Below are positions 2,604-48,263 of a stretch of 64,000 bases of DNA, piece by piece. The notes beneath the pieces were generated by a model that saw nothing but the letters and a program-made list of their open reading frames with translations, did no database searches and was not told the DNA's origin. How positions within the stretch are numbered: the first letter of the stretch is position 1; each line of letters starts with the position of its first letter. Origin of the DNA: Rhizobium sp. LC145 (GTDB lineage: Bacteria; Pseudomonadota; Alphaproteobacteria; Rhizobiales; Rhizobiaceae); assembly GCF_001005825.1 (NCBI RefSeq), contig NZ_LBHV01000004.1, positions 1-64,000 of the forward strand. The letters are read 5' to 3'. Position numbers and translations under genes: made by a program.

Positions 2604-4895
2604 ATGGGCTGGGGATTATCGTCGCACGCGCGCCTGCTGAACGGAACGGCCATTGCCGTCTTGCTATCCGTCTCAGGTCCGGCCATCGCGCAACAGGCAA
2701 CCACGAACGAGGCGCCCGCTGCTCAGGGTACCGTTCTCGAAACGATCAATGTCCAGGCGACGAAGCAGGGCCGCGTCGGGGCCGCGCCGCAGACCCAGAC
2801 GACCGAGCGTCCCAAACTCGAGCAGCGCATGGTCACGGACTTCAAGGATTTCGCCCGGCGCGTCGATGCAGGCGTGAATTTCAACAGCAACACCAACAGC
2901 ATCAACATGCGCGGCCTGCAGGATAACCGGGTTTTGACCACCATCGACGGAATCCGTCTTCCGTGGCTGACCGACCCGCGGGATAGCGCCAGGGGCGGTG
3001 TAAACTCGTTCGATTTCGATAGCCTCTCGGCGGTGGATATCACCAAGGGCGCCGATTCCAGCCGCTTCGGCTCCGGCGCACTCGGCGGGGTCGTCGAACT
3101 GCGCACGCTCAATCCGGAAGACCTGATCGAGGACGGCAAGTCCTACGGCGCGCTGGCCAAGACGACCTATGACAGCGCCGATCAGAGCGTCGGCGGCAAT
3201 GCCGCGGTGGCCGGGCACTTCAATGATAGCTGGCTCCTCGTCCAAGGCGGCTACAAGAAGGGCCATGAGATGGACAATAAGGGCGAGATCGGTGGTTACG
3301 GCACGACCCGTACGGAAGCCAACCCCGCCGACTTCGTGCAGAAGAACCTGCTCGTCAAATTTCACCAATACCTCGAAGGCGGCCACCGCTTCGGCCTCAC
3401 CGGCGAAATCTACGACCGCGATGAAGACATCGACAACATGCGCGGCTCGACGAGCAGCTATCGGGCAGGCTCGCTCAAAAGCGGCGAAGACGTCAACCGC
3501 AAGCGCATTTCCGGCTCCTATGACTTCATCTCGCCGGATGGCACCGATTGGGTCGATCAGGCAAGCATCACCGCCTATTGGCAGAAGGAGCGCCTGAACA
3601 ACACGACCGATGGTTTCCGCATTCCCAGCGCACTTGGCAGAATTATCCCAGGCGACCCCTTCTTCTACGGCCGTCCATTCGGTGTTTACAAGCGCGACAA
3701 CATGCTGGAGCAGACCTCCTATGGCATCACCGGCAACGCCTCGAAGGAGGTCGAGCTTGGCGGCGTAGCGCACGAATTCCGCTTCGGTGGCGAACTTTAC
3801 TGGCAGGATACTCATCAATATTCTTGGGGCCAGGATAATTGCCCGGATGCCGACTGGTCGACTATCCCGATGCCTTTCGGCCCGCAGTCTTGCCGCATGC
3901 TGCATTCGAACGCATCCGACATGCCGGATGTCGATAGTGTTGCCTTCGGCTTCTATGTGGAAGACGACATCAAGTTCATGGATGATCGCCTGACGATCAC
4001 CCCCGGCGTCCGCTTCGACTGGTACAGGCACGATCCGAAATCCACGGCCGCCTACGAGGACAGCCCGAACTTCGATACCGCTTACCTGCAGTCGACGGAC
4101 GATTTCGGCGTCTCGCCGAAACTCCGCGCCTCGTGGAAGGCAACCCCTGAGCTGGAGCTTTACGCCCAGTACGCACGGGGCTTCCGCGCGCCGACAGTGC
4201 TGGAACTCTATCAGAATTACGGCGCACCAGGCTCCTACGCACGGGTCGGCAATCCGGAGCTTGAGACTGAAACCAGCAACGGATTTGAGATCGGCGCGCG
4301 CTATGCGGCGACCGACTATGCCGTATCCGCGACCGTCTTCAACAATTACTACCGTAACTTCATCGACACGGTGATGCTCGCCCCTCCTGGCGGCGAATAT
4401 CCGATCGGCGGCGTGACCAGCTATGACAACCTCGATCGGGTGCAGATCTACGGCATCGAGCTCAGCGGCGAGTGGCGTTTCCAGGAGAATTGGCGCACCT
4501 GGGGTTCGCTCGCCTGGACCCATGGCAAGAACACCGATACGGACGAATACCTGAATTCCGTGGCTCCGCTGCGCGCCATCGTTGGGCTCGGCTATTTCAC
4601 CGAGACCTGGGGAACCGACGTCTCGCTGACCATGGCGGGCGCCCGAAACAAGGTGAGCGGCACCGGCTTCAAGGCCCCCGGCTACGGCATCGTAGACGCC
4701 ACCATCTGGTGGGCCCCCGAGCGGATCGGCGATATCGACGTCTCCGGCCTCAAGGTACAGGCCGGCGTCTTCAACATCTTCGACAAGAAGTATTGGGACG
4801 CTGTCAGCGTGCCGGACAGCACCTCGCTTGCAAGCCGCGATTTCTACAGCGAAGCCGGACGTTCCTTCCGCGTATCCATCACCAAGAAGTTCTAA
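2604..4895 (+). CDS. TonB-dependent heme/hemoglobin receptor
   Basis: Outer-membrane receptor of 763 aa for heme or hemoproteins, related to HmuR/ShmR/BhuA. A signal peptide ends near residue 29 (LSVSGPAIAQQ). A TonB-box and plug region follow, including NINVQATK and NMRGLQDNRVLTTIDGIR. The barrel carries the FRAP motif (residues 527-530) and NPEL (550-553), the FRAP/NPNL pair typical of heme receptors, and ends with a C-terminal aromatic residue (ITKKF). GAGG at 2595-2598 precedes the ATG. The candidate IRO box upstream suggests induction under iron limitation through RirA. No TonB or heme ABC genes are adjacent, so transport partners must be elsewhere. The exact ligand cannot be told from sequence. 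Confidence 0.92.
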   Translation: MGWGLSSHARLLNGTAIAVLLSVSGPAIAQQATTNEAPAAQGTVLETINVQATKQGRVGAAPQTQTTERPKLEQRMVTDFKDFARRVDAGVNFNSNTNSINMRGLQDNRVLTTIDGIRLPWLTDPRDSARGGVNSFDFDSLSAVDITKGADSSRFGSGALGGVVELRTLNPEDLIEDGKSYGALAKTTYDSADQSVGGNAAVAGHFNDSWLLVQGGYKKGHEMDNKGEIGGYGTTRTEANPADFVQKNLLVKFHQYLEGGHRFGLTGEIYDRDEDIDNMRGSTSSYRAGSLKSGEDVNRKRISGSYDFISPDGTDWVDQASITAYWQKERLNNTTDGFRIPSALGRIIPGDPFFYGRPFGVYKRDNMLEQTSYGITGNASKEVELGGVAHEFRFGGELYWQDTHQYSWGQDNCPDADWSTIPMPFGPQSCRMLHSNASDMPDVDSVAFGFYVEDDIKFMDDRLTITPGVRFDWYRHDPKSTAAYEDSPNFDTAYLQSTDDFGVSPKLRASWKATPELELYAQYARGFRAPTVLELYQNYGAPGSYARVGNPELETETSNGFEIGARYAATDYAVSATVFNNYYRNFIDTVMLAPPGGEYPIGGVTSYDNLDRVQIYGIELSGEWRFQENWRTWGSLAWTHGKNTDTDEYLNSVAPLRAIVGLGYFTETWGTDVSLTMAGARNKVSGTGFKAPGYGIVDATIWWAPERIGDIDVSGLKVQAGVFNIFDKKYWDAVSVPDSTSLASRDFYSEAGRSFRVSITKKF

Positions 4896-39618: not shown

Positions 39619-40899
39619 TCAGTAGGGCCGGTCGGCCGCAAGCTCTCCGTCCGTCTCCTCGCGCTCCAGGTAGCGCTGGTCGATCTCCGGCAGCGGCTTG
39701 TCGTCGATAGCCGCCTCGAAGGCCACGAGACGCTTGTGGATGGAGAGCAGCTCGATGATCGTGGTCCAGGAATTGACGAGATACTGGAACGAGTTGCTGA
39801 CCTGGCCGAAGGCGGTCGCGATCTGCTGATAGATACCATAGGTGATCTTGCCCGCGACGATCGTCGGAACCAGCATGAACAACAGGAAGAGCGCATCGGC
39901 CTGGATGTAGAAATAGCGGGCGACGTTGAAATAGAGATAGTGGAAATACATCCGGAAATAATTCTTCCGCACGTTGGAGAACAGCTCGGTGACGAGCGGC
40001 GGCTGGGCCCGGTCTTCATGGTCCTCGCCGAAAACCAGTTCCTTTCGATAGGCCGCCTCGACGCGCTGGTTGCGGAAGTTGAGGCCCGGAAGCTTGATGC
40101 CGGCAAAGGCGAGCAGCAGCGTGCCGAAGGTGGACCAGCCGAGAGCAAGCCAGAAGAGCGCATGCGCGACTTCGCCGATCACCGGCAGCTCGGAAACATA
40201 GCTAGATAGAGAGAAAAGGATCGGCAGGAACACCACCAGCGTCATCACCGAGTTGATGAGCATGATGCCCAGGCCTTCAAGAATGGTGGCGAAGCGCATC
40301 GTATCTTCCTGGATACGCTGCGAGGCGCCTTCGATATGGCGGACCTTCTCCCACATCGACATGTAGTAATTGTTCATCGCCGTGCGCCAGCGGAACACGT
40401 AGTGGCTGACGAAGAAATCCGTGATGATCGAGACGAACATGCTGAGGAACGCGATCTGCGCAAAGATCAGCATGAGATCGTAGAAATTCCAGACCGTTAT
40501 GCCGGGTTGCTTGGTAAGCGCATTCTGCAGCAGGTCACCGAAAGGACGCCGCCAATTGTTGATCGCGACCGAAATCTGCACGCCGAAATAGGTGGAAAAG
40601 ATGATCAGCGCCGAGCCCCAGATGGACCAGATCTTCCAGGGATGGTTGCCCGCGCGGATATGCCAGAAGCCACAGAAAAGCAGCACGCAGATGAGGAAGT
40701 AGATGTAGAAGCCGAGATTGTCGGGAACCAGGAAGAAGCTCAGGTCGATCGGCGGTTCCTGCCCCTCCGCCAGCGGCGCGAAGCCGAGCGAGGGAACGAT
40801 GTCCCATCCTGCCCAATACCAGAACAGAATGCAGGCGACCGTCCAAACGCAAAGAGAAGTGAAGTAGGCCTTGGGCTGCGGGAAGAAGGAGTGGAACAC
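39619..40899 (-). CDS. bacA: Peptide transporter BacA/SbmA
   Basis: A 426-aa inner-membrane protein with about seven helices that imports Pro-rich and cysteine-rich peptides using the proton gradient. It begins FHSFFPQPKAYFTSLCVW and contains the conserved NNWRRPFGDLLQNAL, FRWRTAMNNYYMSMWEKVRHIEGASQRIQEDTMRFA (the SbmA_BacA signature) and VARYFYIQADALFLLFMLVPTIVAGKITYGIYQQI. The start is GTG at 40899. In Sinorhizobium BacA protects bacteroids against plant NCR peptides and is needed for symbiosis; in Brucella for chronic infection. Here it is a single-gene unit with its own terminator. Confidence 0.95.
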   Translation of the reverse strand: MFHSFFPQPKAYFTSLCVWTVACILFWYWAGWDIVPSLGFAPLAEGQEPPIDLSFFLVPDNLGFYIYFLICVLLFCGFWHIRAGNHPWKIWSIWGSALIIFSTYFGVQISVAINNWRRPFGDLLQNALTKQPGITVWNFYDLMLIFAQIAFLSMFVSIITDFFVSHYVFRWRTAMNNYYMSMWEKVRHIEGASQRIQEDTMRFATILEGLGIMLINSVMTLVVFLPILFSLSSYVSELPVIGEVAHALFWLALGWSTFGTLLLAFAGIKLPGLNFRNQRVEAAYRKELVFGEDHEDRAQPPLVTELFSNVRKNYFRMYFHYLYFNVARYFYIQADALFLLFMLVPTIVAGKITYGIYQQIATAFGQVSNSFQYLVNSWTTIIELLSIHKRLVAFEAAIDDKPLPEIDQRYLEREETDGELAADRPY

Positions 40900-44717: not shown

Positions 44718-45188
44718 TCAGAATGTCTTTGCAACTTCCTCCAGCTGGTCGGCGACGATGCCCCAGCCCTCGTGGAAACCCATTTCCTCGTGCGCCTTCT
44801 TGTCTTCTTCGGTCCAGTGCACGGCCGTCGCGGTATATTTCGTGCGGCCGTTGCCGAGATCCTCGAATTCGATGATGCCGGTCATGAACGGCTTTTCAGA
44901 AGGCACCCAGGCGCTGGTGAACGCATCGGTGAAGACGAGCTTCCTGTTCGGCACGATTTCCAGATAGATGCCGTGATTGGGAGCCTTCTCGCCATTCGGC
45001 CCTTCCATCAGGATATAGTTCGATCCGCCGGGGCGCAGGTCGAGCCTGGCTTCCGTCACTTTCCAGGGCTTGGGGCAGAACCATTCGCCCATGCGCTCCG
45101 GCGTCGTCCAGGCCTTGTAGAGCTTATCGGCGGGCGCGGTCCGTTTGCGGACGAGCTGCAGCGGATGGGGGGGGGGCTTGGGGGTCAT
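44718..45188 (-). CDS. SRPBCC/AHSA1-domain protein with C10 tract
   Basis: A 156-aa START-like (AHSA1) protein: LQLVRKRTAPADKLYKAWTTPERMGEWFCPKPW at the front, and GFHEGWGIVADQLEEVAKTF at the end, the usual GWxxxxxxLxxxL helix. Such proteins bind hydrophobic ligands or act like Aha1. Codons 5-7 plus the next base are a run of ten C (45167-45176 as G on the plus strand), very near the start; slippage of one base would end translation early. No signal peptide. Confidence 0.82.
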   Translation of the reverse strand: MTPKPPPHPLQLVRKRTAPADKLYKAWTTPERMGEWFCPKPWKVTEARLDLRPGGSNYILMEGPNGEKAPNHGIYLEIVPNRKLVFTDAFTSAWVPSEKPFMTGIIEFEDLGNGRTKYTATAVHWTEEDKKAHEEMGFHEGWGIVADQLEEVAKTF

Positions 45189-45425
45189 TGTCCTCTCCTC
45201 GTTTTCTCAAAAACATCTCTCAGATGCTGAACCTAGGACGTGTGGCAATATCCCGATCCGACAGTGGCTCGAATTTTTTCCGATTCACTCCGATCCTCCG
45301 GGAAGCTCACGCACCCATCGACCTTGACTTGGACTCCTGATGCTTTAAGGCCTTTTCCCGCGGGGACGACCCGCGTCTTCGATGACCATTTCCGGGACGG
45401 CCCGGCCCATGACAGGAGGGCCGGA

Positions 45426-46175
45426 ATGGCGGGTCCCGTTGAGCAATTCGAAATCAAGCCGATCGTCACCTTCGGAGAGATCGGCGGCCAGGCAATCGCC
45501 TTCACCAATTCCGCGGCTTATATGGCGCTGACCGTATGCCTTGCGAGCGCCTTCCTGCTGATCGGAACCGCACGCCGTCAGCTCGTGCCGGGACGCTTCC
45601 AGTCGGCGGTCGAGACGCTCTTCGAATTCACCGCGAAGACCTTGCGCGACAATGCCGGCGAGCAGGGAATGCGGTTCTTCCCGCTGGTGTTCTCGCTCTT
45701 CATGTTCGTGCTGGTCGCGAACCTGGTCGGGCTTTTCCCCTACGCCTTCACCGTCACGAGCCATCTCATCGTCACCTTCGCGCTCGCCATGCTCGTCTTC
45801 CTGACGGTGACGATCTACGGCGTCGTGCGGCACGGTTTCGGCTTCTTCCGCCTCTTCATGCCCTCGGGCGTCCCGTGGGTGCTCGCGCCCATCATCGTTC
45901 CGATCGAGATTCTCTCCTACATCTCGCGGCCGTTCAGCCACTCGATCCGACTTTTCGCGGTCATGCTGGCGGGCCACATCACGCTGAAGGTCTTCGCCGG
46001 CTTCGTCGCCAGCCTGTCCGGTCTCGGTGCGCTCGGCCTCTTCGGAGCGGCACTCCCGCTTCTCATGACGGTGGCGATAACCGCGCTGGAGGCGTTGATG
46101 GCGGTCGTCCAGGCCTATATCTTCACCATGCTGACCTGCATGTACCTCAACGACGCCATCCATCCCGGACACTGA
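45426..46175 (+). CDS. atpB: Isolated ATP synthase F0 subunit a
   Basis: A 249-aa membrane protein homologous to subunit a of F1F0-ATPase. AGGAGG lies before the ATG at 45426. The essential Arg of the proton path is R175 ([14 protein letters not shown]), with E222 and Q229 in the last helix and the conserved C-terminus [12 protein letters not shown]. The Asn conserved beside the Arg (E. coli N214) is V179 here. Normally atpB lies in atpI-atpB-atpE-atpF; here it stands alone between AHSA1 and sugE, with no other atp gene in reach. It may be a second, diverged copy or the only a-subunit after gene movement. Confidence 0.88.
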
Positions 46176-46215
46176 CGCGAGCTTGATCCCGGAACATGAC
46201 GTGCTTATATTTAGG

Positions 46216-46290
46216 CGGAAAGAGGACGGCCTCTTTTCCGAAATCCCTGATGACCAGGACGGCCTGGCGCTCCAAACAAAGGAGGCCTGG
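46216..46290 (+). promoter_or_regulatory. Guanidine-II (mini-ykkC) riboswitch
   Basis: Two hairpins with the invariant ACGG loop stand in tandem: CGGAAAGAGG-ACGG-CCTCTTTTCCG (46216-46240, one bulge) and CCAGG-ACGG-CCTGG (46254-46267), joined by 13 bases. This is the architecture of the guanidine-II riboswitch. A second CCTGG (46286-46290) next to the ribosome site AAAGGAGG can compete for CCAGG, and CTCC (46270-46273) can pair with GGAG (46281-46284), so guanidine binding should free the ribosome site of the exporter gene just downstream. Confidence 0.85.
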
Positions 46291-46292
46291 CT

Positions 46293-46613
46293 ATGGCTTG
46301 GCTTTATCTCTTCATTGCGGGTCTGCTTGAAATAGGCTGGGCCTATTCCATGAAACGTTCGGAAGGTTTCACCCTTCTGACCCCCACCGTCATCACCATC
46401 ATTGCGATGATCGCGAGCTTTGCCCTTCTGTCGGTCTCGATGAAGACCCTGCCGCTCGGCACCGCCTATACCGTCTGGACCGGCATCGGCGCGGTCGGCG
46501 CCTTCGTGGTCGGCATCACCGTGCTTGGCGAAGCCGCCACGCCCATGCGCCTTCTGGCCGGCGGGCTCATCGTCTCCGGCATCCTGTTGATGAAACTCTC
46601 GAGCACGAGCTGA
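46293..46613 (+). CDS. sugE: SugE/Gdx guanidinium exporter (SMR family)
   Basis: A 106-aa, four-helix small-multidrug-resistance protein: [27 protein letters not shown] has the essential Glu13, and [46 protein letters not shown] is the SugE/Gdx signature. Gdx proteins export guanidinium by proton antiport as dual-topology dimers. The guanidine-II riboswitch directly upstream gives strong independent support for guanidinium as the substrate. AAAGGAGG precedes the ATG by seven bases. Confidence 0.93.
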
Positions 46614-46641
46614 CGAGCGAAGGGGCTTCGGCCCCTTCCAT

Positions 46642-47892
46642 TCACGCTGGCGCGACGGCGGCGCCGAGCTTGTCGATCTGCTGGCGGATATGGGCGCATT
46701 CGGCGGGCGAATTGGCGAGCGCGATCGCCCGGTCGAAGGCCTCGCGAGCCTGCCGGTTGCGGCCGAGCTGCATCAGCAGCCCTCCCTTGACGCCGTGGAA
46801 ATAGAAGTAGCCGTCGAGCTTTTCGGCGAGCGGCTCTATGAGCTCCAGTGCCGTTTCCGGTCCCTTGAGCTTGGAAACGGCAACGGCCCGATTGAGCGCG
46901 ACGACCGGCGAAGGCTGGATGCGTTCCAGCACTCCGTAAAGCAGGGTGATCTCCTCCCAGTCCGTATCCTCCGCCCTTGCGGCGCGGGCATGAAGAGCGG
47001 AGATGGCCGCCTGCAACTGGTATGGTCCCGGCTGGCGGTGGCGGATCGCCTTGTCCAGCAGCGCCAGCGCCTCGTCGATGAGTTTCCGGCTCCACAGGTT
47101 CCGATCCTGATCTTCGAGAAGCACGATCTGGCCCTGTTTGTCGAAGCGCGCCGGAGCCCGCGAATGCTGCAGCAGCATGAGCGCCAGAAGCCCCATGATC
47201 TCCGGCTCGCCCGGAAAGATGCGCAAGAGCAGCCGCGCCAGCCTGATCGCCTCCTCGCAGAAGGCGGCGCTGTCCGGATTGGTGATGCCCGTGGAATACC
47301 CCTCGTTGAAGACGAGATAGATCATCGCGCCGACAGTCGAGAGCCTTGTCGCCCGCTCCGCCGCATCCGGCGTTTCGAAGGGCACGCCTGCCTTGGCGAC
47401 GCGGCCCTTGGCGCGGGTGATGCGCTGTTCCATCGCCGCCTCGCTGACGAGGAAGGCGCGGGCGATCTGCGGCACCGTGAGACCCGAGACAATCCTGAGC
47501 GCCAGCGCGATCTGCTGGGTGTTCGGCAGGTCCGGATGGCAGCAGATGAACATCAGCCGCAAGATGTCGTCCCGGTAGTTGGAATTGTCGAGCCTGTCGG
47601 CCATGTCGACTTCCGCGTCCGAGAGATCGGAAAGCACCTCCTCCTCCGGCAGCGGATCGTTCCTGGACCGCTTTCTCACCGCATCGATGCCGCTATTGCG
47701 CCCGACGAAGATCAGCCAGGCGGCGGGATCGCGCGGCGGTCCCTTTTCCGGCCAGGTCCGGATTGCCCGCAGACAAGCCTCCTGAAAGGCCTCCTCTGCG
47801 GTGTCGAGGTCACGGAAGTAGCGCAAGAGCGCGCCGAGCGCCTGCGGCCGTGCGGCGGTGAGTGCGAGGTCGATCCAGGCGATGTCCGTCAT
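46642..47892 (-). CDS. ECF sigma factor with DUF6596 domain (ECF42-type)
   Basis: A 416-aa extracytoplasmic-function sigma factor. The sigma-2 region includes LLRYFRDLDTAEEAFQEACLRAIRTWPEKG PPRDPAAWL; sigma-4 follows (LTVPQIARAFLVSEAAMEQRITRAKGR). Residues from about 180 form the long C-terminal DUF6596/TPR-like extension (LSTVGAMIYLVFNEGYSTG, ALNRAVAVSKLKGPETALELIEPL), which replaces an anti-sigma factor in this group. The partner DGPF gene lies directly upstream with a four-base overlap, the standard arrangement, so the two are coexpressed. Confidence 0.9.
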   Translation of the reverse strand: MTDIAWIDLALTAARPQALGALLRYFRDLDTAEEAFQEACLRAIRTWPEKGPPRDPAAWLIFVGRNSGIDAVRKRSRNDPLPEEEVLSDLSDAEVDMADRLDNSNYRDDILRLMFICCHPDLPNTQQIALALRIVSGLTVPQIARAFLVSEAAMEQRITRAKGRVAKAGVPFETPDAAERATRLSTVGAMIYLVFNEGYSTGITNPDSAAFCEEAIRLARLLLRIFPGEPEIMGLLALMLLQHSRAPARFDKQGQIVLLEDQDRNLWSRKLIDEALALLDKAIRHRQPGPYQLQAAISALHARAARAEDTDWEEITLLYGVLERIQPSPVVALNRAVAVSKLKGPETALELIEPLAEKLDGYFYFHGVKGGLLMQLGRNRQAREAFDRAIALANSPAECAHIRQQIDKLGAAVAPA

Positions 47893-48263
47893 GTCTTAAC
47901 TGCTCCGGGATGGAAGACGTAGAAGGGCCGGATCTCGTAGGAAGTCGAGCCCGGATTGACCTTTGAGAGTTCCTTGGAAAAGGCGACGGCTTCGTCGAGG
48001 TTTTCGACATCGACCGTATAGAAGCCAAGCAGCACTTCCTTGGTTTCGGCGAAGGGGCCGTCGAGCACCAGCGGCTCGTCCTTGCCCTTGCGCACGGTGG
48101 TCGCGGCCGTCGTCGGCATCAGCCGGCCGGTCGGGCCGAGTTTTCCGGCCTTCGCGAGCGGCTCCTGCACGGCATAGAGTTTTCCCATGACCGCCTCTTC
48201 CTCCTCCTTGGACCATGCAAAGACGGTTTCCTCGTTGGCGTAGCAAAGGATGGCGTAAAGCAT
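47889..48263 (-). CDS. DGPF (YCII-related) domain protein
   Basis: A 124-aa protein named after its DGPFAETKE motif, seen here as LDGPFAETKEVLLGFY. It is the usual cotranscribed partner of ECF42 sigma factors and may supply an unknown sensing or enzyme step. The ATG at 48263 (MLYAILCYANEETVF) has GGAGAAGGAGAG upstream; the longer open frame runs into other DNA. Its stop overlaps the sigma factor ATG. Confidence 0.88.
   Translation of the reverse strand: MLYAILCYANEETVFAWSKEEEEAVMGKLYAVQEPLAKAGKLGPTGRLMPTTAATTVRKGKDEPLVLDGPFAETKEVLLGFYTVDVENLDEAVAFSKELSKVNPGSTSYEIRPFYVFHPGAVKT

Follow-up and report, generated by a model that had tools for sequence, protein, structure and literature searches.

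The lone atpB gene and the ATP synthase genes of the genome

Why should a full-length gene for the F-type ATP synthase subunit a stand outside of any atp operon? The question is raised by the 64,000-nucleotide stretch of DNA analysed here (the window), which belongs to contig C30 of the Rhizobium sp. LC145 genome (5.88 Mb, 35 contigs, 99.9 % complete). The first-pass annotation had proposed either a second a subunit with different ion handling or regulation, or an atpB that had moved out of its operon. The working name AtpB2 is used for the lone second a subunit and AtpB1 for the ordinary operon copy. The features referred to are:

45358–45405, plus strand: guanidine-II (mini-ykkC) riboswitch (cmscan RF01068, 31.6 bits, E 4.8e-4), 20 bases before atpB2
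45414–45419, plus strand: Shine-Dalgarno motif AGGAGG of atpB2, read from the sequence
45426–46175, plus strand: atpB2, lone second gene for F-type ATP synthase subunit a, intact open reading frame, 249 aa
46218–46267, plus strand: second guanidine-II riboswitch (cmscan RF01068, 35.2 bits), between atpB2 and sugE
46293–46613, plus strand: sugE/gdx-like gene for an SMR transporter, 106 aa
Locus L003, 9080–9829, minus strand: ordinary atpB (AtpB1), in the operon atpI-B-E-F'-F

The description of atpB2 as full-length is borne out by its open reading frame and by profile searches, in which the product matched PF00119 with 217 bits (cut-off 33.9) and NF004482 ('F0F1 ATP synthase subunit A') with 363.7 bits (cut-off 225). 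In the AlphaFold model (mean pLDDT 74.4), H172, R175 and V179 are located on one helix (151–198). The neighbours had been named as an AHSA1 gene and sugE, and both matched the corresponding profiles (PF08327 and PF00893, respectively). Inspection of the window by eye also revealed an ORF resembling SbmA/BacA-type peptide transporters (39619–40899, minus strand) and an ECF sigma factor-like gene adjoining a short YCII/DGPF-like gene (46642–48230, minus strand).

Two genes of the genome match PF00119, i.e., atpB2 and the ordinary atpB on contig C33 (C33:389103–389738), the latter clustered with subunit c, an ORF resembling AtpI and two b-type subunits. Since the only PF00137 match (subunit c) and both PF00430 matches are likewise on C33, the reported absence of adjoining atpI/E/F genes at atpB2 is correct. 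PF00006 has five matches in the genome, including a pair on C34, 2.4 kb apart, that resembles alpha plus beta. With the ordinary copy still inside its operon, displacement of atpB is ruled out, and the finding that the annotation had named as fatal to its own proposal (a single atpB, located beside the atp operon in relatives) is contradicted by the presence of two genes. The alternative of a second a subunit thus stands, its product sharing 62 % identity with AtpB1.

Assignment to an N-ATPase was considered, since the altF1 subunit a (TIGR03306) is likewise a second a subunit in organisms already possessing FoF1, and N-ATPase comes as a whole operon. It is ruled out for AtpB2, which is encoded alone and scores 71.3 bits against a TIGR03306 cut-off of 302.1, together with the presence of a single subunit c. 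Because the genome encodes only one subunit c and one b/b' pair, AtpB2 would have to share these. Separately, a same-genus genome encodes a second a subunit that is distantly related (32 % identical; G011:C82:79773–80318, plus strand, locus L047), which is perhaps that of an N-ATPase.

AtpB2 as a distinct subfamily of subunit a

AtpB2 has in common with the ordinary Rhizobiaceae subunit a its length, fold family, conserved ends and the channel residues Arg, Glu and Gln. As the annotation had stated, R175, E222 and Q229 are retained; they are invariant in a 40-row alignment and are taken by us to occupy the positions of E. coli R210, H245 and Q252. All four proton-path residues under discussion are kept except Asn214 (E. 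coli numbering). The valine noted at this position proved to be a property of the subfamily: residue 179 is Val in 53 of 53 aligned AtpB2 proteins and Asn in 43 of 43 operon-type copies, and all 92 distinct AtpB2 proteins compiled here carry Val179 together with His172 (91 of 91 in which the motif could be read directly, and L103 via the 53-gene alignment). Asn also occupies the equivalent position in the five solved a subunits compared, a residue common in subunit a rather than a stated criterion of the family. Further differences from the 43 operon copies are Pro159, Phe125, Met225 and Met235, each fixed in 53 of 53 AtpB2 proteins, as well as Ala107 (52 of 53; Phe in 42 of 43 operon copies). 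His172, three residues before the essential Arg, replaces a Leu found in 43 of 43 operon copies; it was rejected as a hallmark, since His is also present in Paracoccus denitrificans (5dn6) and in the Asn-type protein L249.

Phylogenetic analysis separates the 92 atpB2 genes from 43 operon copies by a single branch (support 100/98) in a tree whose bootstrap was flagged by the program as not fully settled. The atpB2 genes are under purifying selection, with dN/dS values of 0.01–0.08 in nine close pairs (0–0.05 in four operon pairs), and these values, together with the intact reading frame, contradict a recent pseudogene. A copy displaced from the operon or left over from duplication, and devoid of a role of its own, could account for the 62 % identity to the operon copy and the shared family; however, the operon copy is in place, and the 92 atpB2 genes group in a clade of their own, set apart by fixed residues and by a riboswitch that has been conserved, rendering this explanation barely credible.

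Distribution of atpB2

Of 35 further genomes belonging to this genus, four (G004, G013, G019 and G024) contain a close second copy (71–97 % identical). At the family level, 49 of 394 genomes (own genome included) contain a match of at least 373.9 bits, the next one listed scoring 334.8 bits. At the order level, 12 of 297 genomes pass a threshold of E 1e-98, which would miss weaker Val-type genes; four of them are of the Val type (own genome, G624, G706 and G619) and eight of the Asn type. After merging of identical genes, at least 92 distinct atpB2 genes were obtained, the starting lists consisting of best matches. Named genomes among the best 80 of 531 loci include those of Rhizobium, Ensifer, Shinella, Phyllobacterium, Aminobacter, Mesorhizobium, former Ochrobactrum, Pseudochrobactrum, Afipia, Bosea and Kaistia, in addition to metagenome-assembled genomes labelled Tardiphaga and Reyranella; the nearest atpB2 in this set is that of Rhizobium sp. 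LCM 4573 (97 % identical). One copy is located on a Phyllobacterium plasmid. The record JAHREI010000002.1 (L189), titled Bacillus subtilis SK6B4, is probably mislabelled or contaminated, its atpB2 grouping with Pseudochrobactrum in the tree.

According to our own rough gene caller, which called no gene near atpB2 in eight loci, synteny beyond sugE was seen only at the genus level. In an Ensifer-type genus (g95; L083, L086, L087, L089, L090, L092 and L096), inspection by eye revealed atpB2 about 6–9 kb downstream of F1 gamma/beta/epsilon-like genes; these F1-like families (F14, F18 and F17) are each present in six of the seven loci, and genes resembling those for zinc uptake flank atpB2 on its opposite side.

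The patchy occurrence (four of 35 other same-genus genomes) and the location of atpB2 apart from all other atp genes would suit a protein that, instead of serving as a working stator subunit, regulates FoF1, acts as a decoy in its assembly or exerts a dominant braking effect on it under guanidine stress. Such a role is nevertheless improbable in view of the invariant channel residues Arg, Glu and Gln, the narrow length range (248 or 249 aa in 53 of 53 proteins) and the low dN/dS.

Guanidine-II riboswitches upstream of atpB2

The annotation's suggestion of different regulation is strengthened by the leader of atpB2. At E values up to 1, comparison of window positions 45000–46700 with all of Rfam (cmscan) yielded two matches; both are guanidine-II elements, and neither had been noted in the annotation. 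In relation to the RF01068 gathering score of 32 bits, the element of the atpB2 leader is just under and that of the sugE leader over; the counterpart of the former in G019, the nearest relative, reaches 43.2 bits. The element at 45358–45405 comprises a bulged stem P1 with the loop ACGA (45366–45369) and a stem P2 (CCGGG-ACGG-CCCGG, 45392–45405).

Across 52 atpB2 genomes, RF01068 has 115 matches up to E 0.1; the positional count used 96 of these, the other 19 (21.3–26.6 bits) lying nowhere near atpB2. A match on the same strand within 400 bp upstream of atpB2 is present in 49 of the 52 genomes, including a weak one in G129 (25.0 bits, E 0.018); 47 of the matches have E values of at most 0.001 and 46 reach the gathering score. 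The distance from riboswitch end to atpB2 start amounts to 16–23 bp in 17 genomes and 96–226 bp in 32. The three genomes with no RF01068 match in this 400-bp region (G340, G380 and G417) all belong to one genus, in which the guanidine-II element of the genome precedes a ChaA-like gene instead. At the level of genes, twin GGACGRCC cores 22–36 bp apart are found within 400 bp upstream of 85 of the 92 atpB2, as compared to none of 51 operon-type atpB; the seven misses are made up of three genes with a single or altered core and four with no core upstream (three from Pseudochrobactrum and that of Shinella daejeonensis). An independent check with 11 further order-level matches detected the cores in all three Val-type and none of the eight Asn-type genes. 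By spacing, the 92 genes fall into a close class (32), a far class (56) and a class with no element (4). In far-class leaders (e.g., L089, L143 and L186), short ORFs are located between riboswitch and atpB2, some of which terminate just ahead of the start, at a distance of a few bases; they could represent leader peptides that couple translation, and conservation of any such protein across genera was not seen in the part of the leaders viewed.

The atpB2 leaders resemble RF01068 in covariance-model score, spacing and the two hairpins with ACGR loops, which are present in the window leader (as aligned to the model) and in 86 of 92 leaders. In these 86 leaders, the five outer pairs of P1 show standard pairing in 412 of 430 cells, as compared to a mean of 349 and a maximum of 366 upon re-dealing the 3' arms, a shuffle that does not keep the relatedness among leaders.

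Guanidine-II is a small motif (48 positions), the copy ahead of atpB2 in the window falls short of the gathering score and, according to the available part of PMC9788692, variants with changed ligand are known for a related class; the hairpins could therefore be due to chance or represent another RNA of similar shape, with atpB2 answering to something else. This is quite improbable, however, given that 46 of 52 elements reach the curated score, that paired changes occur in P1, that the ACGR loops are conserved and that a further copy, scoring above the cut-off, precedes the neighbouring sugE. These comparisons provide good support for a second a subunit that is conserved and placed under a guanidine-II riboswitch, and regulation of atpB2 by guanidine is strongly indicated.

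Leader folding and direction of the switch

Folding of ligand-free close-class leaders predicted P2 below 0.5 in 27 of 30 cases, with its 3' strand paired in the direction of the Shine-Dalgarno motif; in the window leader, AGGAGG is predicted to be folded against the 3' strand of P2. P2 is less formed in atpB2 leaders than with shuffled spacers (mean 0.12 versus 0.29) and falls below the 10th percentile of the leader's own shuffles in 14 of 30 cases. In 20 sugE leaders, P2 is formed more (mean 0.59). Release of the Shine-Dalgarno motif was not clear across 32 leaders (unpaired 0.41 in the free versus 0.42 in the bound state, with a rise above 0.2 in three), nor did 30 leaders cut at P1 show a clear opening (accessibility of the region 0.43 versus 0.49, with a rise above 0.1 in seven). 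Since the ribosome-binding site does not clearly open in these folds, the direction of the switch rests on analogy: published guanidine-II switches are described as translational ON switches (available part of PMC12186494), and the atpB2 leader presumably acts likewise.

sugE and other genes linked to guanidine-II

The product of sugE matches PF00893 with 95.4 bits (cut-off 23.7), while its best NCBIfam model, SugE NF008512, scores 121.2 bits and thus just under the cut-off of 126. The gene has its own guanidine-II element directly upstream, and its product is a putative member of the Gdx/SugE-type SMR exporters of guanidinium. In 31 of the 92 loci, atpB2 is directly followed by a homologue of this sugE (61–100 % identical) in the same orientation, and in 22 of these 31 twin cores lie between the two genes. 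The linkage to sugE is found in 25 of 32 close-class loci, six of 56 far-class loci and none of the four with no riboswitch. Resistance to organotin by means of sugE and an altered a subunit had been considered but was abandoned once the riboswitch was found; no open-access paper joining the two was found.

With the exception of L240, the twenty other guanidine-II sites examined in these genomes precede SMR genes, genes for PACE transporters or ChaA-like antiporters, and a DUF1989 gene. The third site of the genome studied here (C5:43859–43906, 38.2 bits) precedes a gene for a PACE transporter (NF033664, 133 bits; PF05232) at 3860–4347, plus strand, of L221 (G000:C5:40000–54000), and the same pairing was seen by eye in relatives (e.g., L223, L228–L230, L233, L238 and L239). 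ChaA-like cation/proton antiporters follow guanidine-II in L231 (624–1814, plus strand), L235, L236 and L237. In L045, L084, L085 and L120 (genomes G004, G248, G291 and G418), a ChaA-like gene preceded by the Rfam matches is located just upstream of atpB2. A DUF1989 gene follows guanidine-II in L232 (G207:C22:299000–304000); since DUF1989 is presumably the domain of carboxyguanidine deaminases, this atpB2-containing genome may also degrade guanidine.

Guanidine-II riboswitches occur in 185 of the 394 family genomes, as compared to atpB2 in 49. Most genomes with the riboswitch therefore manage without atpB2, which is dispensable for coping with guanidine in general.

Proposed function of AtpB2

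We consider it probable, with some reservation, that a guanidine-inducible AtpB2 replaces subunit a and thereby keeps FoF1 working under guanidinium. Accumulating guanidinium would bind the riboswitch in the atpB2 leader, P2 would form, the ribosome-binding site would be freed and AtpB2 would be made, usually alongside exporters under sister riboswitches (SugE/Gdx, PACE, ChaA-like). Since one c-ring must be shared, AtpB2 would most simply take the place of AtpB1 in the single FoF1, operating with the existing c-ring, b/b' stalk and F1; such an exchange is likely. In the inlet half-channel, Val would stand at the site of Asn214, which follows the essential Arg by four residues, and this channel may allow the enzyme to continue making ATP, or to stay tight, despite guanidinium. 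Guanidinium, which is similar to the side chain of this Arg, may itself block, or leak through, the channel of the ordinary a subunit. That the exchange confers tolerance is our best guess. The more specific proposal that the a/c interface of ordinary ATP synthase is the place at which guanidinium poisons the enzyme, and that many Hyphomicrobiales swap in a Val-type a subunit to obtain a tolerant FoF1, is put forward tentatively, at slightly short of an even chance. Counting against replacement under guanidinium are the score of the window riboswitch (31.6, i.e., below 32) with its bulged P1, the four of 92 atpB2 genes with no element, the 56 of 92 in which it is far upstream, the failure of folding to show a clear release of the Shine-Dalgarno motif and the many riboswitch-bearing genomes that lack atpB2.

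The main rival to tolerance is a sparing of protons: guanidine-induced AtpB2 in FoF1 would lower proton flow or ATP-driven pumping, saving proton-motive force for the exporters. Guanidinium need not act on subunit a in this case, and Gdx takes in two protons per guanidinium. In E. coli, ATP-coupled proton conductance falls when Asn214 is exchanged for Val, Leu, Gln or Glu, to a much lower level for N214V, while growth on succinate persists (PMC11121307, available part). The sister genes of the regulon, moreover, encode transporters, at least one class being a proton antiporter (PMC12186494, available part). One regulated inhibitor would suffice for this purpose, however, whereas a whole a subunit with intact channel residues under purifying selection suggests a working channel; the E. 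coli mutants, too, may not predict the behaviour of a protein that evolved around Val. Proton sparing is accordingly regarded as rather unlikely, and replacement of subunit a for tolerance of guanidinium is retained as the preferred reading.

Comparison with known systems and implications

From AtpB1, AtpB2 is set apart by its lone gene behind a guanidine-II riboswitch, its patchy occurrence among species and its Val for Asn at the 214 position along with the other fixed residues. The targets of RF01068 named in the available part of a 2025 review (PMC12186494) are exporters or guanidine-degrading enzymes, as opposed to the ATP synthase subunit described here. A parallel is provided by Na+-I riboswitches before genes of Na+-driven ATP synthases (PMC9971707, available part), likewise a cation riboswitch ahead of ATP synthase genes; the ligand differs, however, and Na+-I controls whole complexes, whereas the atpB2 switch would control one exchanged subunit. 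No link between a guanidine riboswitch and subunit a was found in the open-access PMC literature; an earlier mention in the original guanidine-I/-II papers or in supplementary tables is possible. In their available parts, PMC9971707 and PMC12342949 mention guanidine riboswitches and ATP synthase with no link between them, and ATP synthase genes are absent from those of PMC7736828 and PMC7266159.

Many soil and root bacteria thus carry a spare a subunit behind a riboswitch of the guanidine-sensing kind, suggesting that their ATP synthase is refitted as guanidine builds up. As a natural variant of a highly conserved proton-path position that is kept by selection, AtpB2 offers a tool for studying the inlet half-channel and stator exchange. 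Guanidine riboswitches are widespread, and why bacteria react to guanidine is still debated. A riboswitch before an ATP synthase subunit points to the proton channel of FoF1 as a site of guanidinium harm, which can be tested. If true, this would reveal a molecular target through which guanidine is toxic and would represent, to our knowledge, the first ligand-induced exchange of a single motor subunit of ATP synthase.
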